64,000 nucleotides of DNA, from NCBI GenBank assembly GCA_009782475.1, contig WRIZ01000003.1, positions 58,945-122,944 on the forward strand, in the 5' to 3' direction. Both the position numbers and the translations under genes were made by a program. The notes under the pieces are model-generated. The model did not search any database. It saw only the letters and a program-made list of their open reading frames with translations, and had not been told where the DNA came from. Position 1 is the stretch's first letter. Every line of letters starts with the position of its first letter. Shown in pieces: positions 12,689 to 15,769 of this stretch. This stretch comes from Oscillospiraceae bacterium. Its GTDB lineage: Bacteria; Bacillota; Clostridia; Oscillospirales; UBA929.

Positions 12689-12758
12689 ATAGTTGCAAAT
12701 AGTAGACCTTGACAAACGCTTCTATGTGTATTATTATGTGTATCAGGAGGTGTATATT

Positions 12759-12959
12759 ATGCGCACCAATATCGTTATTGATGACAGCCTCATGCAAAAG
12801 GCCATGAGTGTTTCGCAAAGCAAGACAAAAAAAGAAGTCATCGAAAAAGCGTTGCTGGAGTTTATTGCCGCGAACACCCGAAGGGATTTGCTGGATTTAC
12901 AGGGAAATATTTTATTTGCGGACGACTATGATTATAAGGCATTACGGGAGGGTCGTTAG
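12759..12959 (+). CDS. VapB-type antitoxin
   Basis: MRTNIVIDDSLMQKAMSVSQSKTKKEVIEKALLEFI; RBS aggagg; abuts the PIN toxin. Confidence 0.88.
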   Translation: MRTNIVIDDSLMQKAMSVSQSKTKKEVIEKALLEFIAANTRRDLLDLQGNILFADDYDYKALREGR

Positions 12960-13373
12960 TTGATATTGGTGGATACATCGGTCATCATCGATTTTCTAAA
13001 GGGTCATCACAATGCAAAAACAGAGCTTTTTGAATCTGTATTGAAGCAAAAAGCCCCGTACGGGCTTGCGTCATATACCTACCAAGAGGTTTTGCAGGGG
13101 GCAAGGGACGAACGGGAATACAAAAGGTTAAAGGATTATTTGTCCACCCAAAGAATCTGCTTTCTGCCCGAGACAATCGAGTTATACGAAAAAGCGGCTC
13201 TGCTGTTTTTCAATTTGAGGCGTCAAGGGTTTACACCAAGAAGCACGATTGACATTCTAATCGCGTTAACGGCAATGGAAAATGATCTGTTCTTATTGCA
13301 TAACGACAGGGATTTTGACATGATTGCCTCCAAAACCGCCGATTTGAAAATATTGAATCGGCTGTATGAGTAA
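12960..13373 (+). CDS. VapC-type PIN toxin
   Basis: MILVDTSVIIDFLKG...STIDILIALTAMENDLFLLHNDRDFD. Confidence 0.92.
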   Translation: MILVDTSVIIDFLKGHHNAKTELFESVLKQKAPYGLASYTYQEVLQGARDEREYKRLKDYLSTQRICFLPETIELYEKAALLFFNLRRQGFTPRSTIDILIALTAMENDLFLLHNDRDFDMIASKTADLKILNRLYE

Positions 13374-13378
13374 ACAGC

Positions 13379-13443
13379 CTATTCACCGTTATCCTCATCC
13401 CCTTTCCGCTCCGGCAGGGAGTTGAGAAAGATAAAAATTGCCG
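13379..13443 (-). pseudogene. truncated small-TM protein, repeat copy 2 (C-terminal fragment)
   Basis: AAIFIFLNSLPERKGDEDNGE* matches the C-termini of copies 1, 3 and 4; homology stops abruptly at 13443. Confidence 0.75.
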
Positions 13444-13457
13444 CATATTCTTTATGC

Positions 13458-13486
13458 TTGACATACTCTATAGCTACGGTTATAAT
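13458..13486 (+). promoter_or_regulatory. consensus sigma-A promoter TTGACA-17-TATAAT
   Basis: direct reading. Confidence 0.75.
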
Positions 13487-13491
13487 AAAGG

Positions 13492-13604
13492 TGTGGAAAC
13501 CTAGACGGTTGCCACAAGTCGATACTTACCGTTACATTAGGCTATAAGCCTCAAGCAATCGGTGAGCCATCTGTTAGAGGCAGACGGCTCACTACTTCTT
13601 TTTA
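13492..13604 (+). ncRNA. candidate antitoxin RNA of type I locus A
   Basis: starts after the promoter; ends at hairpin GTGAGCCATCTG-ttagagg-CAGACGGCTCAC plus T-rich tail; 3' end antisense to the small minus-strand ORF. Confidence 0.5.
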
Positions 13605-13726
13605 TCAGAGCGTACATGGTCAACTACCGCAATGACAGTCAACACAATCGTACAGATGCCCACAATAATTTCTGAAGTAATATGTACCAGCCTCCTTTCG
13701 AGAATTACTTCCCGCGAGGGCTGCAT
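13592..13726 (-). CDS. candidate type I toxin peptide, locus A (44 aa)
   Basis: MQPSREVILERRLVHITSEIIVGICTIVLTVIAVVDHVRSDKKK; GGAGG RBS before ATG 13726; alternative start near 13681 behind AGGAGG. Confidence 0.5.
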   Translation of the reverse strand: MQPSREVILERRLVHITSEIIVGICTIVLTVIAVVDHVRSDKKK

Positions 13727-13821
13727 ACACGCCTCCATTCCGCTCTCACGGGATGACAGGCAACCATCTCTTTACCATCACCGTCTACAAGAAACAGTAG
13801 CCGGTAGGTTTCCACAACGGC

Positions 13822-13850
13822 ATAATACAGCATTATCTTTCTATTGTCAA
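13822..13850 (-). promoter_or_regulatory. sigma-A promoter TTGACA-17-TATTAT (minus strand)
   Basis: direct reading of the reverse complement. Confidence 0.7.
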
Positions 13851-13864
13851 ATTATAGATGGATG

Positions 13865-14032
13865 TCATTCCTTTTTATCTCCCTCCTCATCCCCTTTCCG
13901 CTCCGGCAGGGAGTTGAGAAAGATAAAAATTGCCGCAATGAAAGCGATCATTAAAATCGCGGCAACCACAGAGCCAACCCGCCCGTATTTCTGATAAATC
14001 CATACCGCTAACTCAAAACCACCGTGTTCCAT
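13865..14032 (-). CDS. small single-TM protein, repeat copy 3 (55 aa)
   Basis: MEHGGFELAVWIYQKYGRVGSVVAAILMIAFIAAIFIFLNSLPERKGDEEGDKKE; RBS GGGAGG. Confidence 0.78.
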   Translation of the reverse strand: MEHGGFELAVWIYQKYGRVGSVVAAILMIAFIAAIFIFLNSLPERKGDEEGDKKE

Positions 14033-14133
14033 GATGTACCTCCCTTATTGCAGCCAATCTATAATGCAACCGATTAGTAGCATTTCTATCCCTACTATGC
14101 CACAAAATAGTAGCATAGTCAAGGGGTGCAAAA

Positions 14134-14346
14134 ATGGTATTTCAAAGACTGGAAGATTTACGAGTGGACAAAGATATGACACAGCAGAAAGTTGCAGACT
14201 TATTAAATTGTAAACGGGAAGTATACCGCAGATATGAAAGGGGCATCAGAGAAATCCCGATTTGGGCACTTATAAAGCTGGCGGATTTCTATCATGTGAG
14301 CATTGACTATATTCTCGGGCGGACAGATAACCCGAAATCATTCTGA
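14134..14346 (+). CDS. XRE-family HTH regulator
   Basis: MTQQKVADLLNCKREVYRRYERGIREIPIWALIKLADFYHVSIDYILGRTD. Confidence 0.85.
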   Translation: MVFQRLEDLRVDKDMTQQKVADLLNCKREVYRRYERGIREIPIWALIKLADFYHVSIDYILGRTDNPKSF

Positions 14347-14380
14347 TATATTGCTATTTTCAATGCTTTTGAGTATAATG
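14343..14380 (+). promoter_or_regulatory. repeated 38-bp promoter element, copy 1 (TTGCTA-17-TATAAT)
   Basis: 36/38 identical to 15308-15345. Confidence 0.75.
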
Positions 14381-14382
14381 AA

Positions 14383-14514
14383 CTGGCCGGGGCAACCCGG
14401 CCGGAAAACGCCAAGCGTACGCTAGGCGAAGGGTAAAATTGAAAACGGCGCAAGCCGGACGGTTACGCCCCCCTAATCCCTTAGCAAAGTCCACAGGAAA
14501 GGGGGGAGCGCGTG
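14383..14514 (+). ncRNA. structured leader of candidate type I toxin mRNA, locus B
   Basis: GGCCGGG-GCAA-CCCGGCC and CGGC-GCAA-GCCG hairpins; CCCCCCT (14468-14474) can pair with the AGGGGGG Shine-Dalgarno (14500-14506). Confidence 0.5.
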
Positions 14515-14595
14515 ATGGAAGTGGCATACATAGTTTCTATGGCGGTGATCGCTGTGGTCGCTATCGTAGTAAACAACCGTAATACGAAAAAATAA
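14515..14595 (+). CDS. candidate type I toxin peptide, locus B (26 aa)
   Basis: MEVAYIVSMAVIAVVAIVVNNRNTKK; RBS ggggggag; terminator overlaps the stop codon. Confidence 0.55.
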   Translation: MEVAYIVSMAVIAVVAIVVNNRNTKK

Positions 14596-14626
14596 CCCAT
14601 CCCGGTCAAGGCAAGGGTTATTTTTT
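14587..14626. terminator. bidirectional intrinsic terminator AAAAAATAACCC-16 nt-GGGTTATTTTTT
   Basis: 12-bp perfect stem flanked by A and T tracts. Confidence 0.8.
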
Positions 14627-14669
14627 TCCTAAACCTTGGGCGTAACCGTTGAAGGTTTTGCCCTTTTCT
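14587..14669 (-). ncRNA. candidate convergent antisense RNA, locus B
   Basis: lies between consensus minus-strand promoter 14676-14704 and the shared terminator; overlaps the 3' end of the toxin mRNA. Confidence 0.5.
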
Positions 14670-14675
14670 GCGTTC

Positions 14676-14704
14676 ATTATACTCCCGCGTCACCATATTG
14701 TCAA
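14676..14704 (-). promoter_or_regulatory. consensus sigma-A promoter TTGACA-17-TATAAT (minus strand)
   Basis: direct reading of the reverse complement. Confidence 0.78.
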
Positions 14705-14715
14705 GTCCTTTTCCA

Positions 14716-14763
14716 TGCCGCGAACACCTAGAGGGATTTGCTTGATTTACAGGGAATTATTCT
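14716..14763 (+). pseudogene. remnant of a vapB 3' end
   Basis: TGCCGCGAACACC..AGGGATTTGCT.GATTTACAGGGA matches 12866-12913; in-frame stop (AANT*RDLLDLQG). Confidence 0.7.
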
Positions 14764-14923
14764 ATTCATCTTTTTCCTTATCCCCTTTCCGCTCCGGCAG
14801 GGAATTGAGAAAGATAAAAATTGCCGCAATGAAAGCGATCATTAAAATCGCGGCAACCACAGAGCCAACCCGCCCGTATTTCTGATAAATCCATACCGCT
14901 AACTCAAAACCGCCGTGTTCCAT
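14762..14923 (-). CDS. small single-TM protein, repeat copy 4 (53 aa)
   Basis: MEHGGFELAVWIYQKYGRVGSVVAAILMIAFIAAIFIFLNSLPERKGDKEKDE. Confidence 0.78.
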   Translation of the reverse strand: MEHGGFELAVWIYQKYGRVGSVVAAILMIAFIAAIFIFLNSLPERKGDKEKDE

Positions 14924-14932
14924 GATGTACCC

Positions 14933-14962
14933 CCATTATTATCGTTATACCGATAATAATGG
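14933..14962. promoter_or_regulatory. operator-like inverted repeat CCATTATTATCG-ttatac-CGATAATAATGG
   Basis: 12-bp perfect arms between divergent copy 4 and the XRE gene; related half-sites at about 14981-14997. Confidence 0.75.
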
Positions 14963-15051
14963 ATTTTTTCTTTCTTGTCAATCGGTATTCCGATAACGTT
15001 TTCTATCAAAGCTGATACACTTAACGCAATACCAATATGCGAGGGTGTATT

Positions 15052-15294
15052 ATGGGAATTTCGCAGGCAGTTATCGAAAGAATCAATGAGCTTAGGGCGG
15101 CGAAAGAGCTGTCTATCAATAGGCTCTGTACGTTGTCTGCCGTGCCGCAATCAACCATAAGTGAGTTTATGAGCGGAAAGATCAAGAGTTTAGGGATCGT
15201 GAATCTGAAAATGCTTTGCGACGGGCTTGATATTTCGATTGCAGATTTCTTTGACACAGAGGAATTCAGAAATATGGAGCAAGAGATAAAATAA
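15052..15294 (+). CDS. XRE-family HTH regulator
   Basis: INELRAAKELSINRLCTLSAVPQSTISEFMSGKIKSLGIVNLKMLCDGLDISIADFF; RBS gaggg before ATG 15052. Confidence 0.88.
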   Translation: MGISQAVIERINELRAAKELSINRLCTLSAVPQSTISEFMSGKIKSLGIVNLKMLCDGLDISIADFFDTEEFRNMEQEIK

Positions 15295-15307
15295 GCAAAC
15301 ACCCTCT

Positions 15308-15345
15308 CTGATATATTGCTATTTTCAATAATTTTGAGTATAATG
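15308..15345 (+). promoter_or_regulatory. repeated 38-bp promoter element, copy 2, upstream of hicB
   Basis: CTGATATATTGCTATTTTCAATNNTTTTGAGTATAATG shared with 14343-14380. Confidence 0.78.
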
Positions 15346-15362
15346 GGTTCAGGAGGGATGTT

Positions 15363-15566
15363 ATGAGCAGGGTTTTCACAGCTGTGATTCAGCAGGAGGA
15401 TGACTGGTATGTCGCCGGATGCGTGGAAAACAATGTGGCTTCACAGGGAAAGTCGATAGATGAAGCGTTGTCCAATCTGCGTGAGGCATTAGAACTATAT
15501 TATGAAGACAAACCGGTTCCGGCTTTCCACCCCGCATTTGTAACAACATTAGAGGTTGCCATATAA
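15363..15566 (+). CDS. hicB: HicB-family antitoxin
   Basis: FTAVIQQEDDWYVAGCVENNVASQGKSIDEALSNLREALELYYED. Confidence 0.9.
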   Translation: MSRVFTAVIQQEDDWYVAGCVENNVASQGKSIDEALSNLREALELYYEDKPVPAFHPAFVTTLEVAI

Positions 15567-15769
15567 TGCCGCCAGTCACAAAACCGGAGCAAATCATCAA
15601 CGGGTTGGAGCGCAATGGGTTTCGGTTTATCAGACAAAGAGGAAGTCATCGAAAATATAGAAAAGAAGGAAAGACCGTCATTGTGCCGATGCACTATGAA
15701 CTTACCAAGGGTATATTGCAGTCGATTATCAAGCAATCAGGGCTTATGTATGAAGAGTTGATAAAATAG
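15566..15769 (+). CDS. hicA: HicA-family mRNA interferase toxin
   Basis: GFRFIRQRGSHRKYRKEGKTVIVPMHYELTKGILQSIIKQSGL. Confidence 0.92.
   Translation: MPPVTKPEQIINGLERNGFRFIRQRGSHRKYRKEGKTVIVPMHYELTKGILQSIIKQSGLMYEELIK

Follow-up and report, generated by a model that had tools for sequence, protein, structure and literature searches.

The nearest described counterpart of the locus analysed here is bsrG/SR4 of the Bacillus subtilis prophage SPbeta, in which the mRNA of a short hydrophobic toxin is overlapped at its 3′ end by a convergent antisense RNA. According to reviews of the probing work, the 3′ portion of helix P1 in bsrG is contacted by loop L3 of SR4, and SR4 binding lengthens the stem that closes the Shine-Dalgarno (SD) sequence of bsrG from 4 to 8 bp (PMC6562991, PMC7430163, PMC4147584). 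The par locus of pAD1 (Fst–RNAII) features convergent promoters, a bidirectional terminator and an SD-closing stem-loop (PMC7472228). In txpA/RatA, where the antisense RNA overlaps the 3′ side, RNase III-dependent silencing has been described (PMC3531473).

The present locus occupies positions 14351–14704 of the window, the whole 64,000-nucleotide stretch of DNA that was analysed. It shares with bsrG/SR4 the short hydrophobic peptide and a predicted convergent antisense RNA over the mRNA 3′ end and also, as predicted features, a closed SD, the potential for pairing between the leader and the 3′ region, and an antisense RNA that carries a same-sense copy of the leader. The two differ in the length of the peptide (26 residues here, 38 in bsrG), and no family model connects the two sequences. 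Their RNAs also overlap to a different extent, ~45 nt in the window, or ~85 nt if the mRNA includes the stretch T described below, compared with ~120 nt in bsrG/SR4; and in bsrG a terminator of its own follows T, whereas here T lies beyond the shared bidirectional terminator. The elements listed for par are likewise present in the window, but the par repeats are direct in the DNA, making the RNAs complementary at their 5′ ends, while those in the window are inverted, making the RNAs alike. The toxin and RNAs of txpA/RatA are larger, and the window locus has no Rfam family. The Hol-Tox loci (PF16935) of Clostridia and Bacilli show the gene plan and the leader/antisense mimicry of the window, although the window peptide and its scanned homologues fall below the PF16935 cut-off.

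That the convergent RNA mimics the leader in the same sense points to an mRNA of the bsrG/SR4 type, closed between its 5′ and 3′ parts. The locus is very probably a type I toxin-antitoxin locus, composed of a putative membrane peptide and a candidate silencing RNA, and we put the probability that it is a chromosomal locus of bsrG/SR4 architecture at about 0.68. The kind is known; the peptide subfamily is unnamed and absent from Pfam and NCBIfam.

Architecture of the locus

The promoter scan placed a near-consensus promoter for the toxin mRNA (TTGCTA-17-TATAAT) at 14351–14379 on the + strand and a perfect one (TTGACA-17-TATAAT) for the antisense RNA at 14704–14676 on the − strand, as a preliminary description had proposed; the locus has two promoter-like sites, where shuffled sequences average 0.5 (sd 0.6). 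An ORF at 14515–14595 (+) encodes the 26-aa hydrophobic peptide MEVAYIVSMAVIAVVAIVVNNRNTKK, a putative membrane toxin. The bidirectional terminator common to both converging RNAs (14587–14626, both strands) was also recovered, with arms at 14587–14603 and 14610–14626 that are 88% complementary; a simple terminator scan, whose pattern admits loops of 3–8 only, did not flag it. The antisense RNA, a putative antitoxin, is predicted to extend from about 14669 to 14585 (−); its length of ~85 nt, for which the start is assumed to lie near 14669, agrees with the earlier estimate. It is predicted to fold into a 5′ hairpin, GGGC-AA-AACC...GGUU-AC-GCCC, followed by the terminator.

The leader had been described as heavily structured, and the predicted fold of 14383–14523 (−61.9 kcal/mol, z = −4.0; equally low in 0 of 200 shuffles) contains both GCAA hairpins that had been named. 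The first of these, the 5′-terminal GC hairpin GGCCGGG-GCAA-CCCGGCC (14385–14402), has a counterpart with changed stem letters in the homologous loci L002 and L003, and is followed by a middle hairpin, GCCAAGCGUACGCUAGGC (14409–14428), which is found in the window copy only. Next comes the leader element, whose 5′ arm AAGGGUAAAAUU (14429–14440) and 3′ arm ACGGUUACGCCC (14459–14470) are separated by the inserted hairpin CGGC-GCAA-GCCG (14446–14457), so that the element reads AAGGGUAAAAUU, a GAAAA-hairpin insertion, and ACGGUUACGCCC. The counterpart of the inserted hairpin has the loop AAAUA in L030 and is absent from L037. Sequestration of the SD (AGGGGGG, 14500–14506) is likewise borne out in the predicted fold, with CCCCCC at 14468–14473 paired to GGGGGG at 14501–14506, and it recurs in the predicted folds of the homologous leaders through letters that differ yet remain self-complementary.

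Absent from the preliminary description is the same-sense copy of the leader element with which the convergent RNA starts. The 5′ start of this RNA, AAGGGCAAAACCUUCAACGGUUACGCCC, is matched by the two leader arms, and the toxin-strand stretch complementary to it, denoted T (14638–14665, +), can also pair with these arms through G-U wobbles in a predicted 5′–3′ helix comparable to bsrG P1, the 3′ arm pairing with T at 14638–14649. When the window mRNA is folded without T, the 3′ arm is predicted to pair in part with the start-codon region, besides the SD; with T included this pairing is lost. Across 14 loci, the addition of T opened the computed SD region in 10 and closed it in 1, and the mean unpaired fraction rose from 0.35 to 0.38. 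The calculated effect of T on SD accessibility is small and mostly in the SR4-like direction.

Peptide and homologous loci

Four homologous loci were found, one in the same genome (L002, peptide 76% identical), a second in the same genus (L003, 84%) and two, detected with a peptide profile, in a single genome of another family of the same class (L030 and L037). Together with the window, all five possess the leader element, the predicted closed SD, the peptide, the shared terminator and the convergent promoter. The three closest peptides give dN of 0.09–0.17 and dS of 1.5–2.1 (dN/dS ~0.06–0.08), and the small hydrophobic ORF is under purifying selection. With these four complete homologues, all of which keep both the peptide and the convergent promoter, with the recurring sequestration of the SD, and with the covarying leader-3′ helix described below, the candidate type I reading put forward earlier is supported.

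The peptide subfamily is rare, since the order, class and phylum samples contained no further copies. Neither the window peptide nor its homologues received an above-cut-off assignment in Pfam or NCBIfam; the Hol-Tox profile did not match the window peptide and gave at best 7.6 bits (L037) against a cut-off of 23.3. DNA and peptide searches of plasmids and phages with the window locus returned no matches, pattern scans of viral contigs gave nothing or chance matches within coding genes, and a scan of the genome collection found only the same-genus MAG, plus chance matches in unrelated phyla. Five weak peptide matches (L031, L032, L033, L036 and L038) were rejected as chance, their surroundings lacking such a locus. 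Rfam gave no credible match for the window locus at gathering or relaxed thresholds, RatA included. On the type I reading, the type I toxins would gain a so far unnamed peptide subfamily.

At native levels, many small membrane peptides do no harm, and the product of this putative toxin gene might instead be a regulated small membrane peptide, other than a toxin, under antisense control. The dense toxin-antitoxin gene neighbourhood and the architecture held in common with Hol-Tox and bsrG loci argue against this, and we regard it as unlikely.

Mimicry of the leader by the antisense RNA

Among 20 Clostridia loci, the same-sense similarity of antisense RNA and leader was 12.4 for cognate and 7.0 for non-cognate pairs (0 of 20000 permutations), while complementarity was not enriched (6.43 vs 6.12; 1969 of 20000); as the loci are related, such permutation counts are not independent probabilities. 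The same result was obtained with a second, independent set, 15 Hol-Tox loci from Bacilli plasmids and phages, in which same-sense similarity was 9.41 vs 7.36 (0 of 20000) and complementarity was again not enriched. Throughout the order, Hol-Tox loci follow this design in different letters, as does the adjacent locus A. In the bsrG/SR4 pair itself, same-sense similarity exceeds that of shuffles only moderately (8 of 500), and the bsrG mRNA of phage SPBc2 is predicted to form the same 5′–3′ helix as the leader and T.

Because leader and antisense RNA are alike, both are able to pair with T. The differences between them are directional: from antisense to mRNA, the changes C→U and A→G number 72 in the wobble-compatible direction and 9 in the reverse, a count based on element pairs whose alignment was partly manual, and the bias persists (31:5) at positions that are unpaired in the antisense hairpin. 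Wobble pairing to T predicts just such a bias, and the leader thus appears to retain such pairing with T, just past the terminator. When the mRNA was folded through T, 23.6 leader bases were predicted to pair with the cognate T, compared with 11.2 for a non-cognate and 10.7 for a shuffled T, and cognate pairing exceeded both controls in 19 of the 20 loci. In the five closest loci, the leader-T helix comprises 24 pairs in an alignment trimmed by hand, with 95.8% of cells paired and four two-sided changes, and a one-base loss in the L037 leader is mirrored by a one-base loss in its T.

A similar hairpin (GG...ACC/GGU...CC) is present in both RNAs of many loci, in some cases together with its loop and flanks, as would be expected if the shared 5′ element bound a common factor, such as a protein, an RNase or a ligand, with the antisense RNA acting partly as a decoy. 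The match is locus-specific, even among several loci of one genome, and the differences fit wobble pairing to T, a requirement that a common factor would not impose; we therefore consider this explanation improbable. The mimicry could also be purely mutational and without function, arising from template switching or gene conversion between inverted repeats 200 bp apart; the locus would then still be a type I pair. Inverted repeats at short spacing are prone to homogenisation, and the matching of some loops and flanks (L044, L051) fits such events. Homogenisation alone, however, would yield neither the 72:9 bias nor extra hairpins kept only in the mRNA copy, and this reading seems less probable still. 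Least credible is a par/Fst-like locus, in which the 5′ part of the antisense RNA pairs directly with the leader (direct repeats in the DNA) and blocks the start site: its gross plan is the same (PMC7472228), but complementarity in the 20 Clostridia loci is at background, whereas six Fst-family loci, the positive control of the comparison, show the reverse pattern, with enriched complementarity (17.8 vs 6.75) and no same-sense similarity.

Direct antisense-leader pairing was dropped also because cognate pairs showed no advantage over non-cognate ones in duplex or cofold energy. Two further candidates were dropped: a riboswitch, because the element copies are locus-specific; and an invertible cassette, which the short repeats, interrupted in the mRNA copy, make implausible.

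In the preferred, bsrG/SR4-like reading, the + strand mRNA would be translated into a short membrane peptide, probably harmful if overproduced, and the leader helix, predicted and conserved, would close its SD. The predicted ~85-nt convergent RNA is a perfect complement of the mRNA 3′ end and would probably trigger duplex formation and decay by RNase III, a step proposed by analogy with bsrG/SR4 and txpA/RatA. In an mRNA that contains T, leader and T, with wobbles, would form the 5′–3′ helix. The 5′ half of the antisense RNA is a perfect complement of T and consequently resembles a same-sense leader copy; by taking T, it could free the leader to lengthen the SD-blocking helix. What the sequences show is the anatomy of the locus, its conservation, the locus-specific mimicry, the directional wobble bias and the covariation; the transcripts, the toxicity, the order of binding and the arrival of some toxin mRNA at T are what we infer. 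In the toxin direction the U-tract of the window terminator is strong, so that most of the toxin mRNA may stop before T; the terminators of several relatives, e.g. L042 and L054, are weak in that direction. The inclusion of T decides the P1 step only, not the toxin-antitoxin reading.

More tentatively, leader mimicry could be a general signature of 5′–3′ closed toxin mRNAs in Hol-Tox and related Bacillota type I loci, mirroring Fst/par, with the closing strand of the Clostridia version placed past the shared terminator; read-through would there give the mRNA in two forms, and the efficiency of the terminator would contribute to the switch. No earlier description of this signature was found in the open-licence papers searched. 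Whether the antisense 5′ half is same-sense or complementary is a simple sequence criterion that separates two antisense logics among Bacillota toxin-antitoxin loci, and from it a closed mRNA of the bsrG type is predicted for many loci with apparently unprobed RNAs. Set against its relatives, the locus suggests that toxin messages of this kind are closed by folding according to a general rule.

Several Bacilli plasmid Hol-Tox leaders (L061, L062, L068) contain a short upstream ORF that ends near the toxin SD, which suggests translational coupling. When read on the toxin strand, the first hairpin of the antisense RNA in these loci resembles an additional intrinsic terminator downstream of T.

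The surrounding toxin-antitoxin island

The locus lies in an island (12693–15769) that contains genes for VapB and a PIN-domain protein (to 13373), two loci of type I-like organisation, two pairs of a helix-turn-helix (HTH) gene and a hydrophobic ORF, and a hicA pair, in which the HicA gene has a DUF7387 partner (15363–15769). The second type I-like locus, locus A (13440–13870, −), encodes a different small hydrophobic peptide (...HITSEIIVGICTIVLTVIAVVDHVRSDKK), for which no homologue was found among 96 other genomes; both of its RNAs start with a common element (GUGGAAACCUA...GGUUGCC).

A 39-nt promoter block, 95% identical between copies, precedes the type I locus (14342–14380) and the hicA pair (15307–15345), each time directly after an HTH gene. 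The same block following an HTH gene ahead of two different loci suggests that modules were duplicated and their cargo exchanged. Another block, of 179 nt and 94% identical between copies, also occurs twice (13865–14346 and 14762–15294) and carries the same ~54-aa hydrophobic ORF (MEHGGFELAVWIYQKYGRVGSV...), which has no Pfam match; each copy of the ORF is divergent from a different small HTH gene. A partial third copy of the 179-nt block is located at 13380–13445.
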